From IMG/VR virus record IMGVR_UViG_3300020463_000149, positions 1-22,563 of that record: 22,563 bases of DNA. The stretch is one strand, 5' to 3'. Both the position numbers and the translations under genes were made by a program. The notes below the pieces were generated by a model that had not been told where the DNA came from, ran no database searches, and saw nothing but the letters and a program-made list of their open reading frames with translations. Of the stretch, positions 320 through 21,904 are shown one piece after another (position 1 is the first letter of the stretch; each line of letters starts with the position of its first letter). The stretch is from a virus.

Positions 320-900
320 CACAGGTACAATTAAAAGAAGGTGCAATGGGTGTAGTTGATACAGTCATTGTATTTCGTATTCTTAAAATGATGACCAGAA
401 AGTGGAGTGAAATGGATGCATTCAAACTTGGTCTTATTGATGATAATGGTAAAAGAATAAAAACTAAAAAACCTAAAACCTCAGAAGAAAAAAATTCATA
501 CACTTTACTACATAGATTAGTATTCAATTTAAAAAGAGTCTTGGAACTACTACCATTTGGTAGAACCAGACTTGCATCTTACGCTGCATCGTTAGCACTT
601 CTAAAAGAACATTTTGAAATAGATGGAAAGTATCTAGAAGAATCATTCTACACACACTTAAAAGAAAATGATTTAGTACTTGACTTATTAGAGGGTCATG
701 ATAATATGAATAATCTACAAAAAGGAAAAGAATACGAACTGAGACAATCAGTTTGGAATGAAGAAGATAACATAGGTCACAGAGGTGACTATGTTCAAGT
801 ATTAGGTAAAACTGATACTGTAATGGGAGTAGACATTTATCGTGTTTACAATAGGTCTCAAGACCAATCAATGTTAATAACAGGACATGATGTTAAATGA
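316..900 (+). CDS. Conserved hypothetical phage protein, 194 aa
   Basis: ATG overlaps the stop of the preceding gene and the 3' end overlaps the next start, placing it in the middle of a coupled operon. The protein has a helical N-terminal half (VDTVIVFRILKMMTRKW), a charged linker rich in Lys, then a segment with SYTLLHRLVFNLKRVLELL and SYAASLALLKEHF. From memory the latter resembles a conserved hypothetical protein of T4-like marine phages. The C-terminus is beta-like and acidic and could bind another protein. There is no signal peptide, transmembrane helix or recognised enzymatic motif. Family function unknown; a virion or assembly role is possible but is not shown by the sequence. Confidence 0.75.
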   Translation: MTQVQLKEGAMGVVDTVIVFRILKMMTRKWSEMDAFKLGLIDDNGKRIKTKKPKTSEEKNSYTLLHRLVFNLKRVLELLPFGRTRLASYAASLALLKEHFEIDGKYLEESFYTHLKENDLVLDLLEGHDNMNNLQKGKEYELRQSVWNEEDNIGHRGDYVQVLGKTDTVMGVDIYRVYNRSQDQSMLITGHDVK

Positions 901-3336: not shown

Positions 3337-3555
3337 ATGTCAGTAGAAAAAATAATAGCAGAACATTTAAACATTGACGAATCATCAATCAGTGATGATA
3401 GTAAAATCGTTGAAGATTTAGGTGCAGATTCATTACATACAGTAGAACTTGTTATGAAGTTTGAAAATACATATGATATGGAAATACCAGATGAAGATAC
3501 AGATAATCTAATTACTGTAGGTGATGTAAAAAAATACATTGAGGAATATTCATAA
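3337..3555 (+). CDS. acpP: Acyl carrier protein
   Basis: A 72-residue acidic protein with the standard acyl carrier fold: helix 1 (VEKIIAEHLNI), the GADSLHTVELVM motif and a C-terminal helix (TVGDVKKYIEEY). S32 in the DSL motif is the expected 4'-phosphopantetheine attachment site. The length matches bacterial AcpP. A strong AAGGAG ribosome-binding site precedes the ATG. In cells ACP carries acyl chains for fatty-acid and lipid synthesis; after host phosphopantetheinyl transfer, the phage copy could alter membrane lipids or present a substrate to another enzyme. No other fatty-acid gene is nearby, apart from the unexplained diiron protein upstream. It overlaps the following spanin-like gene by one base. 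Confidence 0.93.
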   Translation: MSVEKIIAEHLNIDESSISDDSKIVEDLGADSLHTVELVMKFENTYDMEIPDEDTDNLITVGDVKKYIEEYS

Positions 3556-4463: not shown

Positions 4464-4491
4464 TTGACAAATCCCAGAAACATAGTATTAT
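4464..4491 (+). promoter_or_regulatory. Sigma70-type promoter for the primase-nrd operon
   Basis: TTGACA (4464-4469), a 16-base spacer, then TATTAT (4486-4491). The expected +1, seven bases after the -10 box, is 4498, which is the A of the primase ATG. No ribosome-binding site would then be present on the transcript, so the mRNA would be leaderless. This promoter lacks the TAGGTACA spacer block of the four other promoters at 11918, 12099, 13067 and 19840. Confidence 0.6.
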
Positions 4492-8788: not shown

Positions 8789-9881
8789 AGTTTTTAATAG
8801 AAACAAAGTAAATTTTTTAAAGAATCCAATCTTTTTTGGAGAGGAACTTAATACCCAACGATATGACGATTTTAAATATCCGATTTTCGATAAACTCACA
8901 CAAAGACAATTGGGTTATTTCTGGAGACCAGAAGAAGTTTCTCTTCAAAAAGATAGGAACGACTATAATGAACTTAGTAAAGCACACAAACATATCTTTA
9001 CTAGTAATCTAAAGTATCAAACACTTTTAGATTCAGTTCAAGGTAGAGGGCCTGCAACTGCACTACTACCCTTCTGCACTCTTCCAGAGTTAGAGGGATG
9101 TATCATTGCATGGGACTTTATGGAAACAATCCATAGTCGTTCCTACACTTATATGATAAAGAATCTGTATTCAGACCCAACAAAAATATTTGATACAATT
9201 CTTGATGACGAAAAGATTATTGCAAGAGCAGAATCGGTCACAAAAAGATATGATGAGTTCATTGACTATGCACAGAGATATAGTTTAGGATATGAAAAGG
9301 ATGAGTATGAACTTAAGAAAAGATTATATCTTGCACTGATAAGTATCAATATCTTAGAAGGTATTCGTTTCTTTGTATCATTTGCATGTACTTTTGCATT
9401 TGGTGAAATGAAAAAGATGGAAGGTTCTGCAAAGATTATCAGTCTGATTGCAAGAGACGAAGCACAACATCTTGCAATATCACAACACATTCTAAAATGT
9501 TATCAGAAAGAAGAAAAAGATAAAGTAATGTTAAAAGTCATGAAAGATTGTGAACCAGATGTTTATCAAATGTATGAAGAAGCAGTTGCAGAAGAAAAAG
9601 ACTGGGCAGAATATCTATTTAAATATGGTAGTATGTTAGGATTGTCAACTGCATTACTAAGTCAGTATGTAGAGTATATTGCAAATAGAAGACTTCGTGC
9701 AATTGGTTTGAATCCTATATATGATATCTCAAGTAGAACTAATCCATTACCATGGACACAACACTGGTTATCATCTAGAGGACAACAGAATGCACCACAG
9801 GAGACAGAGATTGAATCTTATGTTATCGGTGGTATTAAACAAGATATTAAAGAAGATACTTTCGAGGGATTTAAATTATGA
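8781..9881 (+). CDS. nrdB: Ribonucleotide reductase class Ia, small (radical) subunit
   Basis: The 366-aa diiron tyrosyl-radical subunit. Ligands fall at the same numbers as in E. coli NrdB: D84 (LLDSVQG), E115 and H118 with radical Y122 (METIHSRSYTY), then ILEGIRFF and ARDEAQH for the second set. The C-terminus (DTFEGFKL) is the likely NrdA-docking tail. A GTG at 8760 would give a 7-residue extension, but I prefer the ATG at 8781, which has AAAGGA upstream and matches the E. coli numbering. It overlaps the oxygenase gene by 8 bases, and the cytochrome c gene overlaps its 3' end by 4 bases. The radical-generating site and metal shell are complete, so the protein should be active if iron and oxygen are available. 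Confidence 0.96.
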   Translation: MSKVFNRNKVNFLKNPIFFGEELNTQRYDDFKYPIFDKLTQRQLGYFWRPEEVSLQKDRNDYNELSKAHKHIFTSNLKYQTLLDSVQGRGPATALLPFCTLPELEGCIIAWDFMETIHSRSYTYMIKNLYSDPTKIFDTILDDEKIIARAESVTKRYDEFIDYAQRYSLGYEKDEYELKKRLYLALISINILEGIRFFVSFACTFAFGEMKKMEGSAKIISLIARDEAQHLAISQHILKCYQKEEKDKVMLKVMKDCEPDVYQMYEEAVAEEKDWAEYLFKYGSMLGLSTALLSQYVEYIANRRLRAIGLNPIYDISSRTNPLPWTQHWLSSRGQQNAPQETEIESYVIGGIKQDIKEDTFEGFKL

Positions 9882-10321
9882 AGGAACTAGGAATGGTAAC
9901 ATTAGGAATAATGGTTTTTATGGGATTTTTTGCAACAGTAATATATCCAGACATGGAATATACAGGATACTCTAGTACTCATTCATGTTATGGTGAATGT
10001 TATGAAGAGTATGTCAGAGTAAATGGTACTGTAGTGGAAATAGAACAGAGAAAGAGAGAGATTGCAAATGCAGATGAATTTAGTTCAATCAGAGGATTAT
10101 GGGCTGGATGTGCAGCTTGTCATGGACAAGAAGGTCAAGGTATGGCAGTCTTTCCTAAACTTGCTGGTCAATCTCAAGATTATATCGTGGGTAGACTTAA
10201 TGCATACAAAAACAGAGAAACAGTAGGTGCAATGTCATCTACAATGTGGGGACAAGCTGCAATGTTGTCCGATAGTGAAATAGAATTACTAGGTGAATTT
10301 ATACAGGAGACCATGAAGTGA
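9878..10321 (+). CDS. Membrane-anchored cytochrome c
   Basis: A 147-aa class I cytochrome c. Residues 4-24 form an uncleaved or signal-type transmembrane helix (MVTLGIMVFMGFFATVIY) for export to the periplasm. The heme attachment site is C78-A-A-C81-H82 (WAGCAACHGQ), and the axial Met is M109 or M113 (GAMSSTMWGQ). KLAGQSQDYI and the C-terminal helix (SEIELLGEFIQ) are typical. An extra N-terminal part with C37 and C41 (SCYGECYEEY) resembles, from memory, cytochromes c of marine Gammaproteobacteria. Heme attachment needs the host maturation system. It overlaps nrdB and glutaredoxin genes by 4 bases each. It would carry electrons in the host respiratory chain; its partner is unknown. Strong candidate for a host-derived auxiliary metabolic gene. 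Confidence 0.92.
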   Translation: MKELGMVTLGIMVFMGFFATVIYPDMEYTGYSSTHSCYGECYEEYVRVNGTVVEIEQRKREIANADEFSSIRGLWAGCAACHGQEGQGMAVFPKLAGQSQDYIVGRLNAYKNRETVGAMSSTMWGQAAMLSDSEIELLGEFIQETMK

Positions 10322-10963: not shown

Positions 10964-11279
10964 AGCAAAAGGTCGTAATCTACAAAAGTGGACTAGAGAA
11001 AGACTAATAGAAGAATTAGATATCCATCCAGAGGATATTAAATCTACTTCTATGGGTGCTGGTGGTGAAGATGTTACCATGGCAAGAGCAGCTAGAATAA
11101 AGTTTCCATATTCAATAGAATGTAAGAATCAAGAAAAGTTAAATATTTGGTCTGCATACGAACAAGCAGAATCAAATTGTGGGGACTACGAACCACTTGT
11201 AGTCATTAAAAGAAATCGTCAAAAAGCATTAGTTGTTTTAGACGCAGAGGCATTCATTAAAATGCACAAGGATGAATAA
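10944..11279 (+). CDS. PDDEXK-type endonuclease candidate
   Basis: An 111-aa basic protein. The pattern GGEDVTMARAARIKFPYSIEC, with E42-D43 and E59-C-K61 (IECKNQEKL), matches the PDDEXK nuclease core, followed by the helix WSAYEQAES and a beta strand (PLVVIKRN). The N-terminus (KAKGRNLQKWTRERLIEEL) is typical of phage Holliday-junction-resolvase-like or restriction-like nucleases. Starting from GTG at 10944 it overlaps the preceding gene by 20 bases; the only other start choices lie well inside. It probably cleaves branched or damaged DNA in replication or recombination, but its substrate is not established. It overlaps the alternative oxidase gene by 8 bases. Confidence 0.75.
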   Translation: MKPQSAKAKGRNLQKWTRERLIEELDIHPEDIKSTSMGAGGEDVTMARAARIKFPYSIECKNQEKLNIWSAYEQAESNCGDYEPLVVIKRNRQKALVVLDAEAFIKMHKDE

Positions 11280-11850
11280 AATATCAGATTGGTTTGCAAT
11301 GTCAATGACGAAGTTTTTTCGTTTTGTTGCAGATACATTTTTTGCAAAGAGGTATGGACATCGTGCAGTTGTCCTAGAAACAGTTGCTGGTGTGCCTGGC
11401 ATGGTTGCTGGTATGTGGATGCATCTAACAAGTCTTAGACGAATGAAAACAGGTTATGGGCCAATGATAAGAGAACTTCTTGCAGAAGCAGAAAATGAAA
11501 GAATGCATCTTATGTTTTTCATAGAAATTACTAAACCAAATGTATTTGAAAGATGGTTAGTGTTATTTGCACAAGCAATCTTTTGGGTATTTTATTTTGT
11601 CTTATATGTTTTTTTTCCTAAAACTGCACATAGAATGATACATTACTTTGAAGAAGAAGCAGTAAAATCATATACAGAATACCTTAAGATGGTAGAAAGT
11701 GGTGAAGTAGAAAACATCCCAGCACCACAACTTTCAATAGAATATTATGGGATGAAGAAAAGTGCAAAGCTTTCAGACTTAATCAAAAAAGTCAGAGCTG
11801 ATGAAGCACATCATGCTAAAATCAATTACAAATATAGTGAGGGGCTGTAG
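11272..11850 (+). CDS. aox: Alternative oxidase (ubiquinol oxidase, AOX type)
   Basis: A 192-aa diiron quinol oxidase that passes electrons from ubiquinol to oxygen without proton pumping. All four signature motifs are present: LETVAGVPGM (E36), AENERMHL (E76, H79), YFEEEAV (E127-E129) and RADEAHH (E178, H181). Two hydrophobic stretches (FFRFVADTFF and WLVLFAQAIFWVFYFVLYVFF) bind the inner membrane leaflet. The sequence around the ligands follows the mitochondrial/proteobacterial AOX pattern and differs from the plastid-type PTOX of cyanophages. Length matches short bacterial AOX, so it is complete rather than truncated. The stop codon lies inside the tRNA-Ala gene: the reading frame overlaps it by 10 bases. 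Together with the cytochrome c gene it could redirect host electron flow. Host origin is likely. Confidence 0.95.
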   Translation: MNKISDWFAMSMTKFFRFVADTFFAKRYGHRAVVLETVAGVPGMVAGMWMHLTSLRRMKTGYGPMIRELLAEAENERMHLMFFIEITKPNVFERWLVLFAQAIFWVFYFVLYVFFPKTAHRMIHYFEEEAVKSYTEYLKMVESGEVENIPAPQLSIEYYGMKKSAKLSDLIKKVRADEAHHAKINYKYSEGL

Positions 11851-11916
11851 CTCAGTAGGGAGAGCGTCTGGTTTGCATCCAGAAGGTCGTAGGTTCGATT
11901 CCTATCAGCTCCACCA
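11841..11916 (+). tRNA. tRNA-Ala, anticodon TGC
   Basis: A 76-base cloverleaf including an encoded CCA. The acceptor stem GGGGCTG pairs with CAGCTCC (one G-T pair). The D-arm is GCTC/GAGC, the anticodon arm TCTGG-TTTGCAT-CCAGA with TGC, and the T-arm GTAGG-TTCGATT-CCTAT. All stems close. It overlaps the last 10 bases of the alternative oxidase gene. A single tRNA in a T4-like phage is common; the -35 box of the next promoter starts two bases after its CCA. Confidence 0.96.
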
Positions 11917-11917
11917 T

Positions 11918-11947
11918 TTGACAGATAGGTACACTTTTTGATATACT
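11918..11947 (+). promoter_or_regulatory. TAGGTACA-type promoter 1 (drives the small RNA)
   Basis: TTGACA (11918-11923), an 18-base spacer containing TAGGTACA, then an extended -10 box TGATATACT with the hexamer at 11942-11947. The predicted +1 is near 11954. It is one of four near-identical promoters in the window. It starts two bases after the tRNA and precedes no reading frame, only the structured RNA. Confidence 0.8.
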
Positions 11948-11953
11948 ACTACA

Positions 11954-12098
11954 GTAAGTTGGTTTGGAATAGAGGTTCGTTACCTTTCAACTAAAGTTGC
12001 TACAAGAACTGATAACGACAGTGAGTCAGAAATCCAACAACTAGAGACCCCAGTAAGACCTGCTGAAGAGTGAGATAGTGACTGGGGTTTTGTTTTAT
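11954..12098 (+). ncRNA. Probable small RNA with cloverleaf-like fold
   Basis: The segment has a strong promoter just upstream, an intrinsic terminator at its end and no credible reading frame. A 9-bp outer stem (GTTG 11958-11961 with CAAC 12038-12041, and TTGGA 11964-11968 with TCCAA 12033-12037, with a 2-base bulge) encloses three small hairpins: AGAGGT/ACCTTT (11971-11987), CAAC/GTTG (11988-11999) and CTGA/TCAG (12009-12029). This gives a four-way junction, then the terminator hairpin. I recognise no family. It lies between two copies of the same promoter. It may act as a regulator or protein-binding RNA; function unknown. The exact 5' end is inferred from the promoter. Confidence 0.7.
12047..12098 (+). 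terminator. Intrinsic terminator of the small RNA
   Basis: ACCCCAGT (12047-12054) pairs perfectly with ACTGGGGT (12081-12088), followed by TTTGTTTTA. The 26-base loop is longer than usual. The T-tract ends where the next promoter begins, so it separates the small RNA from the gene at 12154. Confidence 0.85.
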
Positions 12099-12128
12099 TT
12101 GACAGGTAGGTACATATTTTGATATACT
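12099..12128 (+). promoter_or_regulatory. TAGGTACA-type promoter 2
   Basis: TTGACA (12099-12104), 18-base spacer with GGTAGGTACA, extended -10 TGATATACT (hexamer 12123-12128). The predicted +1 is near 12135, giving an 18-base leader that holds AAGGAG for the TTG start at 12154. Nearly the same sequence as promoter 1, 181 bases away. Confidence 0.85.
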
Positions 12129-12153
12129 ACTTCTGTAATAAAGGAGTAATGCA

Positions 12154-12531
12154 TTGATAGAAAATTATATTAGAACAGAATACGAAATCCAAGACCCATG
12201 TTCTGGGTTCAGTGGTACATCTTTACAAGGTTATACAGACCCAGTAAGTTTCTATGATTTAATAGAACTTTTTGGTAAACCATCTGTTGACACTAATTTA
12301 GACGATAAAGTTAATGTTGAATGGTTGATTGAAGGTAAAAGATATTACATCGATGAATATGGTGATGAAGATTGGGATTATGTAAAAGCAACAATCTACA
12401 ACTGGAAAACTGGTGGTGTTCCAAGTGGTGAATACGATTGGCACATTGGTGGTAATGGTTGGGCTGCAATTGAAATGATTGAAGATATTATCAAAAATAA
12501 CATTAAACCAGAGTACAATTGGAATGATTGA
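12154..12531 (+). CDS. Hypothetical protein, 125 aa
   Basis: The product starts at TTG 12154: AAGGAG lies seven bases upstream, and the nearby ATG at 12149 reads into a stop after two codons. The 125-residue protein is acidic and Trp/Tyr-rich, with VEWLIEGKRYYIDEYGDEDWDY, ATIYNWKTGG and EYDWHIGGNGWAAIEMI. It resembles, from memory, small phage proteins with a common WHIGG-like motif, whose function is not known. It has no signal peptide or membrane helix. It is the first gene behind promoter 2 and overlaps the mini-protease gene by 8 bases. Probably expressed early or middle, given its host-like promoter. Confidence 0.75.
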   Translation: MIENYIRTEYEIQDPCSGFSGTSLQGYTDPVSFYDLIELFGKPSVDTNLDDKVNVEWLIEGKRYYIDEYGDEDWDYVKATIYNWKTGGVPSGEYDWHIGGNGWAAIEMIEDIIKNNIKPEYNWND

Positions 12532-12883
12532 TGTAACAATTATGGGGCCACGAGGTGGTCGTGTTAAAGATATAGATGAAGCATTAATCTATAATTATAT
12601 TATAGAAGCATGTAAAGAACTAAAAATTAGACAAGCAGACATAGAAGTCTTGGTATACAATAAGTTTCCAAGTGATTATGATTATGCAATAGGTTTTTGT
12701 TATGGTGATATTGAATCTGTAACAATTGAATTAACTAAAGAAGATGATAATATGTTTCTAACACTTGCACATGAAATGATTCATGTGAAACAATTTCTAG
12801 ATGATAGATATCCAAGTGAAAGAGAAGCAAAAAAACTAGAAGAAAAACTTCATAAAAAAGTAACTGCAAGGATGGGATACTAA
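12524..12883 (+). CDS. Small HExxH metalloprotease-like protein
   Basis: The frame is open upstream to a TTG at 12479, but I choose ATG 12524, giving a 119-aa protein whose first residues (MIDVTIMGPRGGRV) read as the true start and overlap the upstream gene by only 8 bases. The catalytic motif is H83-E-M-I-H87 (LAHEMIHVKQF), on a helix; a downstream Glu in SEREAKKLEEKLH may complete the zinc site, as in minigluzincins or SprT-like proteins. The front half is a small alpha/beta domain. The substrate is unknown; peptidase activity is inferred from the motif. It is a candidate to cleave a host or phage regulator soon after infection. Confidence 0.75.
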   Translation: MIDVTIMGPRGGRVKDIDEALIYNYIIEACKELKIRQADIEVLVYNKFPSDYDYAIGFCYGDIESVTIELTKEDDNMFLTLAHEMIHVKQFLDDRYPSEREAKKLEEKLHKKVTARMGY

Positions 12884-13077
12884 TGTACACATACTACAAA
12901 GAAATAACAGATTGGAGTGACTCTGGATGTAATGTTCCAAATCACACTTATATCTTTAATGAAAAAAATCAAAATGTAGGATATATCAAAACTGGAACTA
13001 AAAAAGAAATCATTTATAAATCTCCATCTAAACTATTTTCTAAATCAAGACGAAAATTTATAAAACTTGACAGATAG
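12883..13077 (+). CDS. Hypothetical protein, 64 aa
   Basis: ATG overlaps the last base of the protease stop (TAATG coupling). The product is basic at its C-terminus (KLFSKSRRKFIKLDR) and Tyr-rich at its N-terminus (MYTYYKEITDW), with a central beta-like stretch (HTYIFNEKNQNVGYIK). No family recognised. The stop codon lies inside the TTGACAGATAGG block of promoter 3, so coding and promoter sequence overlap. Could be a small host-takeover protein, judging only by size and location. Confidence 0.65.
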   Translation: MYTYYKEITDWSDSGCNVPNHTYIFNEKNQNVGYIKTGTKKEIIYKSPSKLFSKSRRKFIKLDR

Positions 13078-13096
13078 GTACACCTTATAGTAGAAT
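13067..13096 (+). promoter_or_regulatory. TAGGTACA-type promoter 3
   Basis: TTGACA (13067-13072), 18-base spacer with GATAGGTACA, -10 box TAGAAT (13091-13096). This copy lacks the extended TG. The predicted +1, seven bases after the -10 box, is 13103, the A of the next ATG. The -35 box lies within the 3' end of the upstream reading frame. Confidence 0.75.
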
Positions 13097-13102
13097 ACAA
13101 AT

Positions 13103-13264
13103 ATGACAAATATTAAACAATCTTGGAAAGATACTAGAATCAAAGAAATCAATGACATGGGTTACAAGTGTGATGATTCACATCCATGTTTTGAAGAGGT
13201 TCAAGCAATCTATGACAGTAAGGCAGAGTCTTACGAAGAGTTTGCAGAAACCTTTAAAGTATAA
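13103..13264 (+). CDS. Small hypothetical protein, 53 aa
   Basis: A 53-residue frame directly behind promoter 3. Its ATG coincides with the predicted +1 and no Shine-Dalgarno sequence precedes it, implying a leaderless mRNA. The protein (starting MTNIKQSWKDTRIK) contains C23 and C29 (KCDDSHPCF) and an acidic helical tail (AESYEEFAETFKV). Nothing shows a known fold. The dedicated promoter is the main reason to believe it. It is followed by the structured RNA at 13272. Confidence 0.65.
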   Translation: MTNIKQSWKDTRIKEINDMGYKCDDSHPCFEEVQAIYDSKAESYEEFAETFKV

Positions 13265-13271
13265 CAGTTTC

Positions 13272-13386
13272 GAAGTGACAACTCATAGCAGTTGTATATT
13301 GGGTGGGAGTCTGATTCTCCCTTAAAATCCCTAAAGGTGCTGATGGTAGGGTTTACTCTCTCCTTCCCCATCATCGTTGTCACTTC
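13272..13386 (+). ncRNA. Structured RNA element with 11-bp closing stem
   Basis: GAAGTGACAAC (13272-13282) pairs perfectly with GTTGTCACTTC (13376-13386). Inside are a hairpin GGGAG/CTCCC (13305-13321) and a hairpin GATGGTAGGG/CCCCATCATC (13342-13375; one A-C mismatch and one G-T). The arrangement is a three-way junction. Two alternative pairings compete: ACAAC (13278-13282) can also pair with GTTGT (13291-13295), and CCCTA (13329-13333) with TAGGG (13347-13351). No T-run follows. It lies in a 154-base gap between two small genes; there is no credible reading frame in it. It could be a processed sRNA, a 5' leader regulator of the gene at 13419, or a protein-binding element. Confidence 0.65.
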
Positions 13387-13418
13387 ACCTAATTAACGAG
13401 AGACTAACATGAGGAATT

Positions 13419-13580
13419 ATGGCAGTAAAAAGTAGAGGCTTCACTAGTGGTCATACAAAAACTAGGAAGTGTTCTTCTCAAGGACAAGGTGGTCGTAGTC
13501 GAAGGACTAAGATTGGAATGTCTACGATGAATAAAAGAAAAAAAATGTCTCACAAACCATATCGAGGACAAGGGAGATAA
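13419..13580 (+). CDS. Small basic Arg/Lys/Gly/Ser-rich protein, 53 aa
   Basis: A 53-residue protein with GAGG upstream of its ATG. It begins MAVKSRGFTSG and is rich in Arg, Lys, Gly and Ser, ending SHKPYRGQGR. From memory very similar tiny basic proteins occur in T4-like cyanophages and pelagiphages, commonly unnamed. The composition suggests nucleic-acid binding or an RNA- or head-associated role. Its leader contains the structured RNA at 13272-13386, so it may be controlled by it. Two bases separate it from the next ORF. Confidence 0.8.
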   Translation: MAVKSRGFTSGHTKTRKCSSQGQGGRSRRTKIGMSTMNKRKKMSHKPYRGQGR

Positions 13581-13582
13581 TA

Positions 13583-13702
13583 ATGGCACAACCACAACAA
13601 CAACAGAGTGAACTCAAAACACTCAAGGAATGGAAAGATTTTGAAAAAGAACTTAAAAAACAAGTTGCTGAATCTCAAAGAAAGAGCAAAGAAACAGTCT
13701 AG
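13583..13702 (+). CDS. Tiny hypothetical protein, 39 aa
   Basis: A 39-residue frame with GGGAG six bases before its ATG, a better start site than that of the overlapping larger frame. The product (MAQPQQQQSELKTLKEWK, then a helical KELKKQVAESQRKSKETV) is Gln-rich and charged. It overlaps the membrane-protein gene downstream in another frame by 95 bases if the latter starts at GTG 13608. The two could also be linked by a +1 shift near the TAG at 13700; this is untested. Confidence 0.55.
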   Translation: MAQPQQQQSELKTLKEWKDFEKELKKQVAESQRKSKETV

Positions 13703-13991
13703 TAGTTTTACTACAGAAGAGTTAAAAAAATCTACAAGGATTTTTAAATCTGCGACACCAAAATATACATGGGATTGGTATCTTAAGTGGGTATCATCTG
13801 CATTAGTATTAAGTGCAATGTCAATTCGTGGTATTCCAGAGTTACAACAACTGGATTTGATATTATCAATCTTCGGTATCGCAGGATGGGTTGGTGTTTC
13901 AATTGCATGGAAGGACAGAGCATTAATTATGTTAAACACTGTAGGATTGTTTTTCCTACTTAGAAATTTGATTACAATATGGGTACAATAA
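13608..13991 (+). CDS. Membrane protein, DUF6552-like
   Basis: The C-terminal 90 residues are well supported: SATPKYTWDWYLKWVSSALV with two or three membrane segments (ALVLSAMSIRGI, LILSIFGIAGWVGVSIAW, ALIMLNTVGLFFLLRNLI). From memory they match a conserved small membrane protein of T4-like marine phages (DUF6552). The start is uncertain: GTG 13608 gives 127 residues but has no ribosome-binding site; TTG 13641 has AAGGAA ten bases upstream; TTG 13665 is also possible. The conserved part begins about residue 45 of the longest form. A likely holin-like or envelope role is not shown. Confidence 0.7.
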   Translation: MNSKHSRNGKILKKNLKNKLLNLKERAKKQSSSFTTEELKKSTRIFKSATPKYTWDWYLKWVSSALVLSAMSIRGIPELQQLDLILSIFGIAGWVGVSIAWKDRALIMLNTVGLFFLLRNLITIWVQ

Positions 13992-14302
13992 ATTTAGGAA
14001 ACAGTTTAAGGTATGACATGTCTGGTCGTAAAAGAAAGACCAAAAGTCTTTCTACAAAGAAAAAGTGTCATACTGTGTCATACAAAAAGTATGTTCCAAG
14101 TCAATTGGAAATAGACAGACAAAAAGCAAAAGAAGAATTTGATAAGAAATATCCTTCATTGGGTGTTAATGCAAGACCAACTAAAAACATAGATAATTCT
14201 TGGAAACTAGAAGAATCTAAAAAGTTTACAGTTGCACCAGCATACAATAAAGGTGCTTATCAAGTAATACCAAAAGAGGATATAGAATGGATTGGGAAAT
14301 AA
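13979..14302 (+). CDS. Basic hypothetical protein, 107 aa
   Basis: ATG at 13979 overlaps the membrane protein by 13 bases. The N-terminal half is strongly basic (MSGRKRKTKSLSTKKKC), the rest contains YPSLGVNARPTKNIDNSW and a Tyr-rich C-terminus (APAYNKGAYQVIPKED). The internal ATG at 14018 (MSGRKRKT) is an alternative start. Composition suggests nucleic-acid or virion binding. A similar protein in T4-like phages cannot be named with confidence. Confidence 0.65.
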   Translation: MGTINLGNSLRYDMSGRKRKTKSLSTKKKCHTVSYKKYVPSQLEIDRQKAKEEFDKKYPSLGVNARPTKNIDNSWKLEESKKFTVAPAYNKGAYQVIPKEDIEWIGK

Positions 14303-14517
14303 TAATACAGATACTTTTACTTATTGGAGCTGGTATCTTTGCAATCGGTAGTACTATCATTGTTGCAGAAGATAAACAGAAGAAAAAAGTAAAAAATCAC
14401 ATTAATAACTTACCTAAGAAAAGAGAAGAAGGTTTCCCTTTTCAGAAAAAACCACTTACAAGTAAGGGTCAGTTTGATAAACAGAGAACCACTTACACTG
14501 ATGGGGACAATACTTAA
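14287..14517 (+). CDS. Single-pass membrane protein, 76 aa
   Basis: Short protein with one N-terminal transmembrane helix (IIIQILLLIGAGIFAIGSTIIV, about residues 5-26) and a cytoplasmic or periplasmic tail that is Lys-rich, with Pro and Phe (KKKVKNHINNLPKKREE, GFPFQKKPL). It overlaps the preceding gene by 16 bases. Function unknown; size and topology would also suit an accessory lysis or superinfection protein. Confidence 0.7.
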   Translation: MDWEIIIQILLLIGAGIFAIGSTIIVAEDKQKKKVKNHINNLPKKREEGFPFQKKPLTSKGQFDKQRTTYTDGDNT

Positions 14518-14529
14518 AATTTCAATTTT

Positions 14530-14537
14530 TATAAGTA
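14530..14537 (+). promoter_or_regulatory. Late-promoter-like TATAAGTA
   Basis: TATAAGTA, one mismatch from the T4-type late promoter TATAAATA, lies in the 26-base gap before the 370-aa gene. The expected start is within one or two bases of the ATG at 14544, so the leader would be essentially absent. AT-richness makes a chance match possible. Confidence 0.35.
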
Positions 14538-14543
14538 ATTTAG

Positions 14544-15656
14544 ATGAGAAATAAGAGAAATACAAAATCTCTTGATGAAATCTATTATGGTGTAGAACCA
14601 CATGCAGAAGATGACAGAGATAAAGCACGATGCATGAATTGGTATAACTACATGAGTGATAACAAATCATGTGGTGAATGGTTATCAACATGGATGTCTG
14701 ATAGGGATTATGAAGACAAATACATTAAAGGATTGAAGAGACTTAAATATGTCCCTAGAACTGCAGCTGCACTTGCAAGAATGCAAACTAATTCAGTTCC
14801 ATGTATGTTTGAAGGTGATTTATTAAGTCAATCTACAACTGAGTTCATAGAAAAACATGTTAATAAATGTATTGCAGATATAGACTCTCTCAAATCTCTT
14901 AAAGATGAAGAAAAGAAAAAGAAACCAGTTATCTCTATTCAAGAAAGAATTCTAAATAAGGCAAATGAATATGCTGGTGAAATAGAATATCAAATAGATT
15001 TATACTTTGACGACCCTAAAAATAAATTCGATGTCTTTGCATATCTAACAGATGAACAAGTATCAGGCCCAGTTGCAGTAAAAGTAGGTGACAATTTCCA
15101 CAATTTAGAAAAAGAATTAGAAGAAGCAGTTGAAGGTAAATGTCCACAACTAAAAGAAGCATACTCATTCTTATCTAAAAAAGGACTAAGGGATGCATAC
15201 AAATATATTTGTGGTATCAGAACAGATTGTGATAAGTATGCAAAAGGTAAGATAAATCAAAAAAGAAAACCAAGAAAGAAAAAAGTTTACACTGCACAGG
15301 AACAAACTAAAAAGATAAACTACAAGATAACAGATACAGAGTACCATCTAACCTCAGTTAATCCAGAGTTAATCGTTGGTGCAATGCAACTATGGACATT
15401 CAATACAAAAACCAAAGAGATTACCAAATATGAAGCAGAAGATAGAGCTGGTCTTGGAGTCAAAGGAACAACAATACAAAACTTTGGTAAATACAGTACA
15501 TCTAAAAAAATTGGAAACAAGACAGAATATTTCCTTGACAGAATCCAAGAAGGTGGTAAAATAGTATTAAGTAAAGTATTAGATGAAGTAAATACAAAAT
15601 CATCTAAACCTACAGGAAGAATAAACGAACACACTATATTATTGAGAACTGAATGA
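14544..15656 (+). CDS. Conserved phage protein of unknown function, 370 aa
   Basis: A 370-aa acidic and Lys-rich protein. A front domain contains NWYNYMSDNKSCGEWLSTWM, followed by LARMQTNSVPCMFEGDL, a long helical middle (ERILNKANEYAGEIEYQI and FDVFAYLTDEQVSGPVAVKVGD), and a basic Lys/Arg-rich linker (KINQKRKPRKKKVYT). The C-terminal third is beta-rich with LIVGAMQLWTFNTKTKEI, GLGVKGTTIQNF and GRINEHTILLRTE. From memory such a protein precedes the RNase H gene in marine T4-like phages. No catalytic motif is visible. It overlaps RNase H by 4 bases. A DNA-metabolism role is a guess from position. Confidence 0.75.
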   Translation: MRNKRNTKSLDEIYYGVEPHAEDDRDKARCMNWYNYMSDNKSCGEWLSTWMSDRDYEDKYIKGLKRLKYVPRTAAALARMQTNSVPCMFEGDLLSQSTTEFIEKHVNKCIADIDSLKSLKDEEKKKKPVISIQERILNKANEYAGEIEYQIDLYFDDPKNKFDVFAYLTDEQVSGPVAVKVGDNFHNLEKELEEAVEGKCPQLKEAYSFLSKKGLRDAYKYICGIRTDCDKYAKGKINQKRKPRKKKVYTAQEQTKKINYKITDTEYHLTSVNPELIVGAMQLWTFNTKTKEITKYEAEDRAGLGVKGTTIQNFGKYSTSKKIGNKTEYFLDRIQEGGKIVLSKVLDEVNTKSSKPTGRINEHTILLRTE

Positions 15657-16498
15657 TTATCGTAGACCTAACGCAGGTTCTAATTGCGTCACTGATGGCA
15701 TCGACCAGAGGTGGAACTGAACCAATAGATGAAGACCTAGTAAGACACATTGCACTTAAATCACTTGTAATGTATCGTAAAAAGTATGGTAAAACTTATG
15801 GAGAACTAGTTCTTGCAGATGATTCCTATAATGTCTGGAGAAAGGACATTTTTCCACATTACAAAGCAAATCGTAAAAAAAGTAGAGATAAAGATACCAA
15901 AGATTGGGGTCAAATATTTGATTGCATAACTGTAATTAGAAATGAATTAAAAGAGAATTTTCCTTATAAATACCTCTTAATATCAAAATGTGAAGCAGAT
16001 GATATTATAGGAACACTTTGTGAAAAATATGGTGATACAGAAAATATCATGATTATTAGTGGTGATAAAGATTTTCAACAACTTCAAAGGTATAAAAAAG
16101 TAAAACAATTCTCACCTATCACAAAGAGTAATATAAAACTAACACAGGAACAAGCTTTAGAGTATCTTACTGACCATATAATTAGTGGTGATACTGGGGA
16201 TGGTGTTCCTAACTGTTTATCTCAAGATGATGTATTTGTATCTGGGTTGAGACAGAGACCTTTGTCTAAGAAGAAAAGGACATCTATCAAAGACCCTCTT
16301 GTTATGAATGACAGTGAGGTAGACAGGAATTTATCTAGGAATAGAAGTCTTATTGATTTGACCTATATACCTAGTGAATACAAAAATCAAATCCTAGAAG
16401 AATTTGATAATGTAAAGGTTGCATCGAGAGGTGGACTATTAAATTACTTTATTAAGAAAAGACTTATGGATTTGCAAGAAAATATCGGAGACTTTTAA
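15653..16498 (+). CDS. rnh: RNase H / 5'-3' exonuclease, T4 Rnh-like
   Basis: A 281-aa member of the FEN1/T4 RNase H family, removing RNA primers from Okazaki fragments. The acidic active-site residues are visible: D5 (MIIVDLTQ), VLADDSYNVWRKD, KCEADDIIG, MIISGDKDFQQLQ and the helix-hairpin region HIISGDTGDGVPN. The order and spacing match the family. The bridge region FPHYKANRKKS binds DNA. The region 16200-16370 has less A-biased codons than the surrounding sequence. The C-terminal KKRLMDLQENIGDF could be a binding tail. It overlaps the previous gene by 4 bases and precedes DUF6433 by a few. Confidence 0.93.
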   Translation: MIIVDLTQVLIASLMASTRGGTEPIDEDLVRHIALKSLVMYRKKYGKTYGELVLADDSYNVWRKDIFPHYKANRKKSRDKDTKDWGQIFDCITVIRNELKENFPYKYLLISKCEADDIIGTLCEKYGDTENIMIISGDKDFQQLQRYKKVKQFSPITKSNIKLTQEQALEYLTDHIISGDTGDGVPNCLSQDDVFVSGLRQRPLSKKKRTSIKDPLVMNDSEVDRNLSRNRSLIDLTYIPSEYKNQILEEFDNVKVASRGGLLNYFIKKRLMDLQENIGDF

Positions 16499-16501
16499 AT
16501 T

Positions 16502-17203
16502 ATGGCAAAACGAGGAAGACCTAAAGGGTCATTAAATAAAAAAACTCTAGAGAAACAAGTTCAAAAAATTGAACAAGATGTAGCTTTAGAAACAGCAGAT
16601 GCAGTTTTAACAAAAGAAGAATTACCTTCTGCTGTTGATGATGCAGCTGATGTAATGTCCAAATATGAAAAACCTATTGGGGAAACTCAAAAGAAGGTTT
16701 TAGATGGGCCAGTGGGAGAATCAGTAAAACCTAGAAAGGTTTCAGATTTACCAAGGAATCCAAGTATAGTAGAAATACTTAAATTGGTTGAAGAAACTAA
16801 AGGTAAACAATCTAAGATTGCAATCTTAAAAGAATTTAGTGGAAGAGCAGATGTTAAGTATGCACTTAAAGCTGCATTCGATGAAAGAGTTCAGTTTACT
16901 TTACCAGAAGGATTACCAGAAGGAACTGTTATTGGAGACCCAGACACACCAGATGGTGCAATGGATATGGCTCCAGAAAGATTCATTCGTGTATTCAAAA
17001 GAATGCAATATTGGGTAAAAGGTGGTCTTGCAAACAGCACAAGCAAAGTTACAAAACAAGAAGAAATATTCTTAAACACTTTAAGGTCACTTGAGAAATC
17101 TGAAGCAGAGTTTTTACTTGCAATTAAAGATAAGACTATGCCTTTTAAATCTGTCACAAAAGAAATTTGTGAAGATGCTGGATTTGACCTAACTCCTAAG
17201 TAA
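16502..17203 (+). CDS. DUF6433-like protein
   Basis: A 233-aa protein with an AT-hook-like N-terminus (MAKRGRPKGSLNKKT) that could bind the minor groove. The C-terminal half is conserved in T4-like cyanophages, from memory DUF6433: SIVEILKLVEETKGK, AILKEFSGRADVKYALKAAF, RFIRVFKRMQYWVKGG and EAEFLLAIKDKTMP. The linker between is acidic and disordered. In other phages of this group the gene lies close to RNase H, consistent with this order. Function unknown; DNA binding through the N-terminus is inferred from the GRP core. It is followed by a late-like promoter. Confidence 0.85.
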   Translation: MAKRGRPKGSLNKKTLEKQVQKIEQDVALETADAVLTKEELPSAVDDAADVMSKYEKPIGETQKKVLDGPVGESVKPRKVSDLPRNPSIVEILKLVEETKGKQSKIAILKEFSGRADVKYALKAAFDERVQFTLPEGLPEGTVIGDPDTPDGAMDMAPERFIRVFKRMQYWVKGGLANSTSKVTKQEEIFLNTLRSLEKSEAEFLLAIKDKTMPFKSVTKEICEDAGFDLTPK

Positions 17204-17210
17204 GTATTGA

Positions 17211-17218
17211 TATAAATA
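17211..17218 (+). promoter_or_regulatory. T4-type late promoter TATAAATA
   Basis: Exact TATAAATA in the 20-base gap before the next gene. With the standard T4 spacing the predicted +1 is 17224, the A of the ATG. The short gap makes a leader-containing transcript from this site impossible. Confidence 0.55.
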
Positions 17219-17223
17219 CTACT

Positions 17224-17535
17224 ATGGAAAAGACAATTAATAGACTGGGATTAACCGATGAAGAACGAGCAATTACTTACACTAATAATGGTGTAACAAA
17301 GATTGCAGAGATTCGTCATTATGACCCAGTAATGGGATTGTTAAAGATTATAGACCCTATGAGTGGAGACATTCATGAAATGATTTACAATAGGGACTTT
17401 AGTAGATGGTTCGTGCCAGGCACAGACATTGTTTGTACCTATAATGCAGAAGAACCAGTAGTTAAACAGATTGATACTCAGGCAGGTGATGTCCCAGTAA
17501 CAATCAAAAGGTTTCCAAGTAATCCTTTAGATTAA
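17224..17535 (+). CDS. Hypothetical protein, 103 aa
   Basis: A 103-residue, beta-rich protein (EIRHYDPVMGLLKIIDP, DIHEMIYNRDFSRWF, VPVTIKRFPSNPLD) with a weak N-terminal helix (TINRLGLTDEERA). No cysteine motif. No family recognised. It sits just behind a TATAAATA element, which suggests late expression and therefore possibly a virion or assembly function, an inference only. It is separated by 28 bases from the following gene, which has its own GGAG. Confidence 0.7.
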   Translation: MEKTINRLGLTDEERAITYTNNGVTKIAEIRHYDPVMGLLKIIDPMSGDIHEMIYNRDFSRWFVPGTDIVCTYNAEEPVVKQIDTQAGDVPVTIKRFPSNPLD

Positions 17536-17563
17536 TTGGAATAAAATATAGTATGGAGATATT

Positions 17564-17875
17564 ATGGAACAAGTAGAAAAAGTTGATTTGATGCAAACAC
17601 AGATTTTAGGTCTGAAAGAACTTGCACAAATGGTTGCAGTTATTGATACTGCAGCGAGTAGAGGAACTTTCAAAGCAGAAGAGTTCTCAACAATCGGAAG
17701 ATTAAGAGAAATCATTATTGCAGAAAGTCAAACTCAAGCACAGATTAGACAACAAGTTGCACAACAACAAGAAGTCGAATCTACTCTTGATGGTGGTAAA
17801 ACAGAAGGTAATGAAACTGTAGAACCAGTTATTGATGCAAGGGAAAAAATAAAAAGAAGTAAAGGTAAAAAGTAA
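17564..17875 (+). CDS. Helical hypothetical protein, 103 aa
   Basis: Product of 103 residues, almost wholly helical: LMQTQILGLKELAQMVAVID, FSTIGRLREIIIAESQTQAQIRQQVAQQQE, then an acidic linker and a basic end (KIKRSKGKK). The middle has coiled-coil-like heptads. A GGAG ribosome-binding site lies before the ATG. It overlaps the next gene by one base and pairs well with it as a structural or assembly complex, but no family is recognised. Confidence 0.7.
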   Translation: MEQVEKVDLMQTQILGLKELAQMVAVIDTAASRGTFKAEEFSTIGRLREIIIAESQTQAQIRQQVAQQQEVESTLDGGKTEGNETVEPVIDAREKIKRSKGKK

Positions 17876-18294
17876 TGGTAGATAGTTTCGATTTTGGGTT
17901 TACTGCTGTAGACCAAGATGAACTTACAACTAAAACAGGGGAAAGTGCAGCTCTTAATGAAAAGATTGCAGAAGACCTTAAGAAAGTTGCAGAGTCGTCA
18001 AAGGGTGCAGTCAATTCTGAACAGATAGAAAACTTAGATGCAAAAGTTGATGTTCTCAACAAACTTGTATCTAATGCACTAGATGAATTAGATGAAGCAA
18101 AAACAAATGTAGGAAGTTCTACAGATGTTGCAGTATCAAAATTGAAATCAAGTCTTGCAGATGCAGAAGAACTTATCTTACCACTTTTACATAAGCTTAT
18201 GGAAAATGAGGACAAAGAATATATCTATTGGCCTAATCGTAAAGCAATTATTTCACAACAAATTGAAAGAGTTAAAAAAATAACTAGAGGTTAA
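17875..18294 (+). CDS. Coiled-coil hypothetical protein, 139 aa
   Basis: Acidic N-terminus (MVDSFDFGFTAVDQDELTT) followed by long amphipathic helices (AEDLKKVAESSKG, QIENLDAKVDVLNKLVSNAL) and a C-terminal segment ELILPLLHKLMENEDKEYIY with WPNRKAIISQQI. From memory the IYWPNR segment is conserved among small proteins of T4-like phages. No catalytic motif. Translationally coupled (1-base overlap) to the preceding helical protein; 2 bases separate it from the 372-aa gene. Confidence 0.75.
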   Translation: MVDSFDFGFTAVDQDELTTKTGESAALNEKIAEDLKKVAESSKGAVNSEQIENLDAKVDVLNKLVSNALDELDEAKTNVGSSTDVAVSKLKSSLADAEELILPLLHKLMENEDKEYIYWPNRKAIISQQIERVKKITRG

Positions 18295-18296
18295 TT

Positions 18297-19415
18297 ATGG
18301 CTACAGATGCAATTGGACAGACTATTCCTTCATGGGTAGAAGACAATTCATATGAACTAAAAAGTGTTGCAACATTCACATCAAATGAAGGTCATTTGAC
18401 ACCATGTTCAGAAACAGATTTTAGGTCACTATGGAAAACACATTACGAAGGTTCAATAGTTCGTGATGGTAAGATGAAAGACAATAGTTCATATGATGGT
18501 AAGTTTTGGATTGACCCTAATAGAAACTATAATAAAGTAGAAGAACTACCAGACCAACTTAATACAACTGGAGAAACAAATGCAGATGGTAAACCTATGG
18601 CAATGATTCCTTCACTTGCTGGTCAAGATGACAATGATACTTCGAACTATGGTGCAGCACAATGGGTAGGAAATTCTGGATTAGATGCATATGCACCACC
18701 ATGTACTTTTTGGATAGGTGATACAGAGGTCACTAAAGATGATGCATTTACTTCTACTAAAAAATATGTTTGTTGGAGATATGCATCTGATTATAAAAAA
18801 TCAATGTGTAATGAATACAATCCAATAGAAACAGTTGCAAAAAGAACTTTACCTCAACAAACCTCAGGCCCAGCTGAAACATCAAATACAGATTATGATT
18901 CTAAAAATATTTCATCTGATACCACTAATTCACCAACTTTAAGTAGTCCACATCTTACAGAAGAAGGAGCTGGAGAAACTTATGTAACCAAATTAACTTG
19001 TATGAATGATTATTTGGTATCTGGTGCTGGTATGAAATATAAAATGGAATGGGAAAAAAATGAAAATACTGCAATAGCAAGTGAAGTTGATACATGGTTA
19101 ATTTCAAATGGATATGGACGAAGCTCAAAACAAGATAATATTTGGGTTACACATTCACCACAGGTGTTAGGTCAAGCAAGAGTGATGAAAGAGTGCTATA
19201 ACTTTGTAGGTAGTGCAAGAGTAGATACTACTTTACAAGATATCGACAGTGGTGTTTTTGGATTACCAGCTGGACATCCAATTCTTTCTTCAACAATAGA
19301 ATTACAAGGTGCAATAGATTTTACACAGCATTTTCCAGATGCAACAGGATTTAATGATGGAACTCAAATAATACCAGATAATCAACAAGTAAAGTTTGGT
19401 AACGATACTGTTTAA
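18297..19415 (+). CDS. Unrecognised 372-aa protein, possible virion protein
   Basis: A Ser/Thr/Asn-rich, Trp- and Cys-containing protein with no signal peptide and no membrane helix. Local motifs are FRSLWKTHYEGSIV, YGAAQWVGNSGLDAY, KYVCWRYASDYKKSMC, and a C-terminal part with GSARVDTTLQDIDSGVFGL. Low-complexity stretches (about residues 180-225) are Ser/Thr-rich, as in spacer regions of fibre or receptor-binding proteins. I cannot assign it to a family. The C-terminal DATGFNDGTQIIPDNQQVKFG reads like a small beta structure. A late virion role is inferred from composition and surrounding order only. Confidence 0.7.
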   Translation: MATDAIGQTIPSWVEDNSYELKSVATFTSNEGHLTPCSETDFRSLWKTHYEGSIVRDGKMKDNSSYDGKFWIDPNRNYNKVEELPDQLNTTGETNADGKPMAMIPSLAGQDDNDTSNYGAAQWVGNSGLDAYAPPCTFWIGDTEVTKDDAFTSTKKYVCWRYASDYKKSMCNEYNPIETVAKRTLPQQTSGPAETSNTDYDSKNISSDTTNSPTLSSPHLTEEGAGETYVTKLTCMNDYLVSGAGMKYKMEWEKNENTAIASEVDTWLISNGYGRSSKQDNIWVTHSPQVLGQARVMKECYNFVGSARVDTTLQDIDSGVFGLPAGHPILSSTIELQGAIDFTQHFPDATGFNDGTQIIPDNQQVKFGNDTV

Positions 19416-19417
19416 TA

Positions 19418-19837
19418 ATGGTAGATAAAGAACATATTCTTAAACTCAAAAGAGGAGACATTGCATTGATTGTCAATAGTGATGATGGATGGTTTAAGAA
19501 AATGTCGATTGCATTTGCAGACGACCATGACGATTCAATTCAAATGAGTGGTGATTGGATATCACTTTACAAAGCAGTTACACATCTTTCAATGATATGT
19601 GACACTTATCTCAGAAGTAGACAAAACTTAATACAAGAAGATGGTCATGACTTACTTGCAGAACAAGAGTGGAATCAAGATATGTTAGACCCATATATTT
19701 TAGGTGATTATCTTAATAATTTAGGATATACCCTTCCACCAGAACTACAAAAAGAAATTGACGAACAAGACGAACAAGAATTAAAAAAAGAACCTATAAG
19801 TAAGGATAATGTTATTCAACTATTTCCAGAAAAATAA
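19418..19837 (+). CDS. Hypothetical protein, 139 aa
   Basis: A 139-residue acidic protein. An N-terminal domain (LKLKRGDIALIVNSDDGWF) is followed by two helices (WISLYKAVTHLSMICDTYL and LLAEQEWNQDMLDPYILG) and a charged tail ending VIQLFPEK. The last region resembles a peptide motif that binds another protein, but no family is known to me. It is the last gene of its operon, two bases after the previous stop; the promoter of the next unit begins within three bases of its stop. Confidence 0.65.
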   Translation: MVDKEHILKLKRGDIALIVNSDDGWFKKMSIAFADDHDDSIQMSGDWISLYKAVTHLSMICDTYLRSRQNLIQEDGHDLLAEQEWNQDMLDPYILGDYLNNLGYTLPPELQKEIDEQDEQELKKEPISKDNVIQLFPEK

Positions 19838-19839
19838 AT

Positions 19840-19869
19840 TTGATTTATAGGTACATTTTTTGATACAAT
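19840..19869 (+). promoter_or_regulatory. TAGGTACA-type promoter 4
   Basis: TTGATT (19840-19845), 18-base spacer with TATAGGTACA, extended -10 box TGATACAAT (hexamer 19864-19869). The -35 box is the weakest of the four copies, yet the TAGGTACA block is intact. The predicted +1 is near 19876, leaving a leader of about 29 bases before the ATG at 19905. Confidence 0.75.
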
Positions 19870-19904: not shown

Positions 19905-20237
19905 ATGGAAAAACTCAAGTCACCTTATGACATGACAGAACAGGAAATGTTATATGCAGAAATTGGTAGAGAAATCGCCAAGTATGCAGAAAAAAACAAA
20001 ACCACATCACTACGATTCAGTAGAAAAGAATTCGAAACAGATAGAAAAGGAAGTGCAGAAGATGATGTATGGAATCATATGTTAACTGCATGTGATAAAC
20101 TTACTAGGATAGGAACAACATGGGGGCCTAAGGATACCAGTTGTCTTAACAAGAAAGAAAAGATTATTGTCCAAGCACAACTAAGGAAAAGAGAAATTGC
20201 AAGAAAACGAAGAGAAAAAAGACTACAAAGTTCTTAA
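19905..20237 (+). CDS. Basic hypothetical protein, 110 aa
   Basis: First gene of the promoter-4 unit, with AGGA upstream of its ATG. The protein is helical and basic at the end (REIARKRREKRLQSS), with a front domain (MTEQEMLYAEIGREIAKYAEKN) and a conserved-looking WGPKDTSCLN. It looks like a small DNA- or RNA-binding protein, but no family is recognised. It overlaps the next ORF by 41 bases in another frame. Confidence 0.65.
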   Translation: MEKLKSPYDMTEQEMLYAEIGREIAKYAEKNKTTSLRFSRKEFETDRKGSAEDDVWNHMLTACDKLTRIGTTWGPKDTSCLNKKEKIIVQAQLRKREIARKRREKRLQSS

Positions 20238-21111: not shown

Positions 21112-21889
21112 GAATATTGATACAATGAATGAAGAGATATTCTTAATTGATGATGTCTTAAATCAAGGGCCAGAAGAATTAGTAACTACTACATGGTGGA
21201 CAAATTTTACCAATTATGGTTCATGGATAAAAGGATTTCTTGCATATGGTGGTAATCCACCACATATCAGTATGGATAAAACTGGTGACCCAGATATTCA
21301 AAAAAGACTTAGAGAAGAAGGTGGTTTTTCTCCATTTATAACTGGAACAGTAGAAAGAAATACTTGGTATATGAATGTATCTCAAAGTCAAGAAGCATTT
21401 ACAGAAGCAGCTTCAAAAGCATATAAACAAAAAGATGATGGTAATAAACCTTATTGGGATAAAGAAGACCAAGAGTGGGGATTAGACACAAATATATTTA
21501 AACATCATCCAATAGTGCATGTGTCGGTTGATGATATATGGAATACTTATAAACCACATTTTGAGGAAGCGTTAGGTCTTAAAGTAAAAGATTATAACAA
21601 CTGTTATGTTCATGCATTTCAATGTGGAGATAGTTCATGGACACATCAAGATTACATGGATTACAGTGCAATAGTTTATTTCAATCCTACAACACATTGG
21701 GATTTAAGAAAGTGGGGTGGAGAAACATTATTCTTTAATGATGATTTAGACTTTTGTCGTGCAATGACAACACCAAAAGGTGGTAGTGCAGTAGTATTTC
21801 GTGGAGATATTTTTCACAAAGTTACAGGTGTATCTTGGGAAGCTGACTTCCCTAGAAACTCTGCAACATTTTTCTTTGACAAAAAATAA
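21104..21889 (+). CDS. 2OG-Fe(II) oxygenase family protein, second of a tandem pair
   Basis: A 261-aa paralogue of the preceding protein. Ligands: H181 and D183 (WTHQDYMDY), H238 (DIFHKVTGV), R251 (FPRNSATFF). Shared landmarks include NPPHISMD (compare NPPIAAMD), DLRKWGGETLFFND and VSWEADF. GGAG seven bases upstream selects ATG 21104 over the TTG at 21098. Eight bases overlap the previous stop. Different inserts suggest separate substrates after duplication. Both gene copies retain full metal sets, so both should be active. Confidence 0.87.
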   Translation: MIKNIDTMNEEIFLIDDVLNQGPEELVTTTWWTNFTNYGSWIKGFLAYGGNPPHISMDKTGDPDIQKRLREEGGFSPFITGTVERNTWYMNVSQSQEAFTEAASKAYKQKDDGNKPYWDKEDQEWGLDTNIFKHHPIVHVSVDDIWNTYKPHFEEALGLKVKDYNNCYVHAFQCGDSSWTHQDYMDYSAIVYFNPTTHWDLRKWGGETLFFNDDLDFCRAMTTPKGGSAVVFRGDIFHKVTGVSWEADFPRNSATFFFDKK

Positions 21890-21904
21890 CTATGAGGTTA
21901 TAAT
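21876..21904 (+). promoter_or_regulatory. Consensus sigma70 promoter
   Basis: TTGACA (21876-21881), 17-base spacer, TATAAT (21899-21904): both boxes are perfect consensus with ideal spacing. The predicted +1 is 21911, the A of the next ATG, and no leader is left. The -35 box lies inside the last codons of the oxygenase gene. Confidence 0.8.

Follow-up and report, generated by a model that had tools for sequence, protein, structure and literature searches.

A word conserved in the promoter spacers of an uncultured marine T4-like myovirus lineage, possibly the site of a phage-encoded factor

How marine T4-like phages separate early from middle gene expression without MotA and AsiA is an open question: the timing mechanism of cyanomyoviruses is described as unknown (PMC2984593), prediction of middle and late promoters failed for the pelagimyophages (PMC7029224), and Melnitz yielded no middle promoter (PMC9004378). 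The question is addressed here from a 22.6-kb fragment of an uncultured marine T4-like myovirus (IMG/VR record IMGVR_UViG_3300020463_000149), hereafter the window, in which a first-pass annotation had pointed to four promoters, at 11918, 12099, 13067 and 19840, sharing a short sequence block within the spacer. All four are present at these positions, the last with TTGATT as its -35 hexamer; the spacer is 18 nucleotides (nt) long in each, and TG precedes the -10 hexamer in three. The block, TAGGTACA, occurs in every one of them, but it begins 2 nt downstream of the -35 hexamer (the intervening dinucleotides being ga, gg, ga and ta in promoters 1 to 4) and not directly after it, as had been described. 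What is this block for? I propose, with about even confidence, that these elements, which I call box promoters, form a class of early-type promoters dependent on sigma70 in an uncultured marine T4-like lineage, and that a phage factor specific to this lineage reads their block.

The window encodes a gp61 primase, a ribonucleotide reductase, a T4-type RNase H and a DenV-like protein. The best database matches of its NrdA and gp61 are cyanomyovirus proteins (75% and 42% amino-acid identity, respectively), and its DNA gave no nucleotide-level match to cultured phages. Relatives were retrieved through the oxidase gene of the window, that is, by protein and not by motif, and the window clade comprises 14 loci (L004-L017) of at least 90% identity. 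Its longest record, G004 (146 kb), was used as the working genome; the records are mostly fragments, and absences are accordingly provisional.

A scan matrix was trained on the four window sites only. These sites score at least 34.0, against a maximum of 18.6 among 200 dinucleotide shuffles of the window. The same matrix found 11 sites in G004, scoring 19.9-35.6 (the next-ranked site reached 14.3 and the highest of 40 shuffles 20.5), and three to four sites in each of five shorter relatives, while none rose above noise in 12 distant genomes (G015, G016, G020, G021, G024-G029, HTVC008M and C48C1). When the matrix was restricted to the 18-nt spacer, its seven best matches in G004 were all flanked by -35-like and -10-like hexamers, and unsupervised clustering of promoter-like spacers yielded the box family as the largest cluster both in the window, with exactly four sites, and in G004. 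Across IMG/VR, the pattern TTGACNNRTRGGTACANNNTTTNNTATA was found in 102 stretches, as against none for a control with permuted block letters. The block thus recurs well beyond chance in the whole-genome comparison that had been set as its test, and the suspicion that such spacer conservation is unusual was borne out: the block is genuine and genome-wide, and the family is larger than the four copies first noticed. A fifth exact copy of TAGGTACA in the window, at 17434 on the minus strand, looks like chance because no promoter surrounds it.

The anatomy of the element was derived from sites at new loci, collapsed to 25 non-orthologous promoter loci, whose consensus is TTGACNNATRGGTACANNTTTTNRTATAATA. 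Information is restricted to 31 bp, from the -35 hexamer through one base past the -10, the flanking columns mostly carrying less than 0.3 bit. The core of the block, RGGTACA, spans -28 to -21 (the last base of the -10 hexamer being counted as -7) and lies 8 nt upstream of the -10. It is more conserved than the -35 box, with 2.3-2.6 bits at GG and C, similar to the TTG of the -35; exact matches number 22 for GGTACA, 18 for TATAAT and 9 for TTGACA. The -35 hexamer is nevertheless neither poor nor absent, each position of TTGAC being retained at 21-25 of the 25 loci, and TTGACA-like and TATAAT-like hexamers 16-18 bp apart are what characterizes sigma70 promoters of the early type. Promoters whose -35 is poor (TTGCAT, TTGATT) retain the block, and in eight orthologous sets 0-6% of block positions differ, compared with 26-68% in the flanks.

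The loci fetched by protein tell the same story site by site. The junction between tRNA-Ala and box promoter 1 is found in all nine close relatives in which the tRNA end was located, several relatives carry the box of promoter 2 upstream of the orthologous open reading frame (ORF), and promoter 3 is kept in five of the five close relatives that have the 53-amino-acid gene. At promoter 4, TTGATT and the box are retained at the orthologous sites of most relatives, and the box precedes the 110-amino-acid gene in nearly all protein-fetched loci. One could imagine that the promoters are simply copies of a single mobile or recombining cassette, alike by recent descent, since some members have the leader ACTnTTGTAATAAAGGAG in common besides the promoter and several lie at tRNA ends. 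Such copying is very improbable, because across the 25 loci the similarity ends sharply at the -35 and just past the -10, boundaries that mostly refute it; moreover, where relatives have diverged, the block persists at orthologous sites and the flanking sequence differs.

Does the block belong to the host or to the phage? Bacterial and archaeal genomes totalling 257 Gb contained four matches to the box pattern. Three of them fall in contigs that belong to this phage lineage and had been assigned by binning to a Synechococcus metagenome-assembled genome, with proteins up to 95% identical to those of G004; the fourth, in Flavobacteriales (L364), is isolated and close to chance expectation. The block had been suggested to be the binding site of a phage or host regulator. 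Its strong conservation, its restriction to a lineage and its near absence from cellular genomes are indeed regulator-like, but these counts make a host regulator unlikely. None of the cultured phages of the collection carries the element; the best match among cultured marine T4-like phages, in Synechococcus phage ACG-2014g, turned out to be an intrinsic terminator and not a promoter.

A sister lineage uses another block. In G015, G016 and G027 the TTGACA, the 18-bp spacing and the T-run are kept, and the block is ATGACCCTCA or variants of it. The sister-form pattern was found in 73 IMG/VR stretches, corresponding to 38 loci with the consensus TTGACAATGACCCTCACTTTTTAGTATACTA and the variant TTGACAATGGGTnTCACTTTTTG, the alternative block reading ATGGGTnTCA. 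Of 21 long records, 10 have the window block and the remaining 11 have the sister form, so that the two are almost mutually exclusive between genomes; since possession of one block was the criterion for selecting the records, what carries information is solely that the other is missing. An alternative explanation dispenses with any trans-acting factor, the spacer being selected for an intrinsic effect such as DNA shape or contacts with the polymerase or a host-specific sigma. Both families do share the 18-bp spacing, CA at positions 15-16 and a T-run near 19-22, and the pelagimyophage HTVC008M has a conserved extended -10 of its own, ATTGTGATATAAT. I consider an intrinsic effect quite unlikely, because the strong promoters of other marine phages (G020, C48C1 and cyanophage ACG-2014g) have no common spacer block and because the block changes between sister lineages while the spacing stays constant. 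The information content of the core at GG and C, on a par with the -35 TTG, and the lack of the block in cellular genomes also speak against it.

Which genes are served by the box promoters? Downstream of them in G004 are small ORFs specific to the clade, a peptidase gene, CobS and a nucleotidase operon; one precedes about 300 nt of non-coding RNA that runs into tRNA-Asp, and another opens onto an ORF-free stretch of more than 1 kb and is divergent from a glutamine riboswitch (L119 16084-16211, minus strand). Box promoters lie immediately 5' of tRNA-Asp in L305 and L321 and directly behind a tRNA in L295 and L297. The view that the box marks accessory genes and small RNAs therefore holds genome-wide.

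The genes that are of the T4 middle type have another promoter, family B, in which TTGACA and TATAAT are separated by a 16-nt spacer with AATACCAGTTT; its spacer word is AATACCAG. In G004, family B promoters serve uvsX, uvsY, gp55, gp61 and the gp45 operon. Most family B sites, like four of the ten main-strand box promoters, have an ATG 6 nt past the -10, and many of these messages are therefore probably leaderless; so, probably, is the message from box promoter 3, whose -10 ends 6 nt upstream of the ATG at 13103. A family-B-like site in the window, also found in G004, lies inside the end of an ORF and could reflect coding conservation (Table 1). Late-type TATAAATA elements sit separately before other G004 genes; box promoters, with TATAAT and a -35, differ from T4-type late promoters, which have TATAAATA and no -35. 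The window also contains a third strong promoter type, before the DenV-like gene, whose spacer is kept among most orthologues and is not common to other promoters.

A phage factor is the best explanation for a word that is held in fixed phase, is as conserved as the -10, survives decay of the -35, is exclusive to phages and is replaced in a sister lineage. The host RNA polymerase would recognize TTGAC and TATAAT at the fixed 18-bp spacing, and RGGTACA would be recognized by a DNA-binding factor that is encoded by the phage and specific to its lineage, most likely an activator or specificity factor that helps the polymerase select these promoters. Factor and site would change together, and other lineages would thus retain the architecture with a block of their own. 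The second family would serve the core genes of replication and recombination, spacer sequence separating expression classes where T4 uses MotA/AsiA.

A different possibility is that the block is the operator of a phage repressor that shuts the promoters off later, sigma70 polymerase alone firing at once. Most sites have near-consensus -35 and -10 hexamers, a protein bound to the block, which sits between these hexamers, would stand in the way of the polymerase, and the genes served are small and accessory, as immediate-early genes would be. That the block is kept where the -35 is weak favours a positive role, and RGGTACA is without clear dyad symmetry, unlike most repressor operators: by inspection, the consensus TTGACNNATRGGTACANNTTTTNRTATAAT has none past the 4-bp GTAC, nor does it have that of a MerR-type operator. 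On balance a repressor is unlikely, if conceivable given the near-consensus hexamers elsewhere.

Several points weigh against the activator proposed here. No protein that binds the block came to light, and the obvious candidate, the 110-amino-acid product of box promoter 4, gave a low-confidence model made of helices only (predicted local distance difference test score, pLDDT, 60). The near-consensus hexamers of most sites need no activator. The statistics on the 25 loci and on orthologues carry some ascertainment bias, part of these loci having been retrieved with a pattern that includes the block; this does not apply to the four-site matrix scan and the protein-fetched loci. Finally, G004 contains one loose match to the sister pattern (TTGACAATGTTTGGTACTTTTT), the only crossing among the 21 records. 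A further candidate for the factor, the 'transcriptional regulator' gp190 of HTVC008M, was set aside: it does not track the box, because its homologues occur within the clade but also outside it.

More generally, and only tentatively, marine T4-like phages lacking MotA/AsiA may sort their promoters by lineage-specific spacer words, RGGTACA or ATGACCCTCA in 18-bp spacers for accessory genes and AATACCAG in 16-bp spacers for replication genes, read with the host RNA polymerase by a fast-evolving family of phage factors. Two well-defined promoter families with separable gene sets, together with the block swap in a sister lineage, provide concrete sequences that can be tested and a handle on the missing factor.

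Table 1. Box promoters of the window and other features discussed in the text (aa, amino acids)
Feature	Position	Strand	Description
Box promoter 1	11918..11947	+	TTGACA 11918-11923; TAGGTACA 11926-11933; TATACT 11942-11947; ctttttga between block and -10; adjoins 3' end of tRNA-Ala, upstream of untranslated RNA
Box promoter 2	12099..12128	+	TTGACA 12099-12104; TAGGTACA 12107-12114; TATACT 12123-12128; tattttga between block and -10; upstream of ORF 12154-12531
Box promoter 3	13067..13096	+	TTGACA 13067-13072; TAGGTACA 13075-13082; TAGAAT 13091-13096; ccttatag between block and -10
Box promoter 4	19840..19869	+	TTGATT 19840-19845; TAGGTACA 19848-19855; TACAAT 19864-19869; ttttttga between block and -10; upstream of ORF 19905-20237
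tRNA-Ala (TGC)	11841..11916	+	directly 5' of box promoter 1
Small RNA	11954..12098	+	between box promoters 1 and 2; 3' intrinsic-terminator-like hairpin ACCCCAGT...ACTGGGGTTTTGTTTT
125-aa ORF, function unknown	12154..12531	+	behind box promoter 2; restricted to window clade
Metallopeptidase-like ORF	12530..12883	+	DUF6782, E 4e-5, 23.4 bits, below Pfam cut-off of 27; same gene run as 125-aa ORF
53-aa ORF	13103..13264	+	behind box promoter 3
110-aa ORF, function unknown	19905..20237	+	behind box promoter 4; conservation limited to box clade
Family B promoter	4464..4491	+	TTGACA-aatcccagaaacatag (16 nt)-TATTAT; 6 nt upstream of gp61 primase ATG 4498
Family-B-like site	15535..15562		inside end of ORF 14544-15656; about 90 bp upstream of T4-type RNase H gene
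Third promoter type	21876..21904		TTGACA-17 nt-TATAAT; 6 nt upstream of DenV-like gene
Structured RNA	13272..13386		11-bp closing stem GAAGTGACAAC/GTTGTCACTTC enclosing inner helices
Alternative oxidase	11272..11850		Pfam AOX, E 8e-70
c-type cytochrome	9878..10321		CAACH haem motif; upstream of glutaredoxin and oxidase genes
Acyl carrier protein	3337..3555		PP-binding, E 7e-11
AurF-like di-iron N-oxygenase	897..1988		E 7e-11

The small RNA between box promoters 1 and 2 is 100% identical in L017 and 79% identical in L014-L016, and always lies behind a box promoter. The structured RNA at 13272-13386 is conserved, with compensatory changes in 5 of its 33 pairs among 10 clade members and no match in Rfam. 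The only relative of the phage-encoded alternative oxidase in the phage collection is that of Phage C48C1, 60% identical; its occurrence with a phage-encoded c-type cytochrome suggests manipulation of host respiration. The acyl carrier protein gene lies close to that of the AurF-like enzyme.

How do box promoters compare with known systems? Like the MotA/AsiA-dependent middle promoters of T4, they occur many times in a T4-like phage and have, upstream of a sigma70 -10, a brief additional motif that is conserved, and the first-pass annotation had placed the block in the position of the T4 activator box. T4 middle promoters have a GCTT core at -30 to -27, within a MotA box, TGCTTtA, located 11-13 nt upstream of the -10, and little -35 similarity (PMC1524935), whereas here the -35 is intact, the block lies at -28 to -21 and the spacer is fixed at 18 bp. 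Furthermore, uvsX, uvsY, gp55, gp61 and the gp45 operon use family B, box promoters being left to accessory genes, tRNAs and RNAs, and neither MotA (PF09114) nor AsiA (PF09010) gave a match over the cut-off in G004 and seven other, possibly incomplete, records. The parallel therefore fails on block position, -35, factors and genes served. With the early promoters of T4, RB49, RB69 and Aeh1 they share near-consensus sigma70 elements that precede small, novel and tRNA genes; the published consensuses of those promoters centre on -35, UP-like and -10 elements, and none is described there as having a specific block in the -35-proximal half of its spacer (PMC1524935). HTVC008M likewise has a genome-wide sigma70-like promoter family, in a marine T4-like phage and before some of the same genes (peptidase, CobS), but its spacer is 17 bp long, with ATTGTGA next to the -10, and RGGTACA is not present. 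Finally, at MerR/SoxR-type promoters the regulator binds a dyad within an over-long sigma70 spacer of 19-20 bp; box promoters would resemble them in having a regulator site within the spacer of a sigma70 promoter, and differ in that the block is asymmetric and the spacer 18 bp long.

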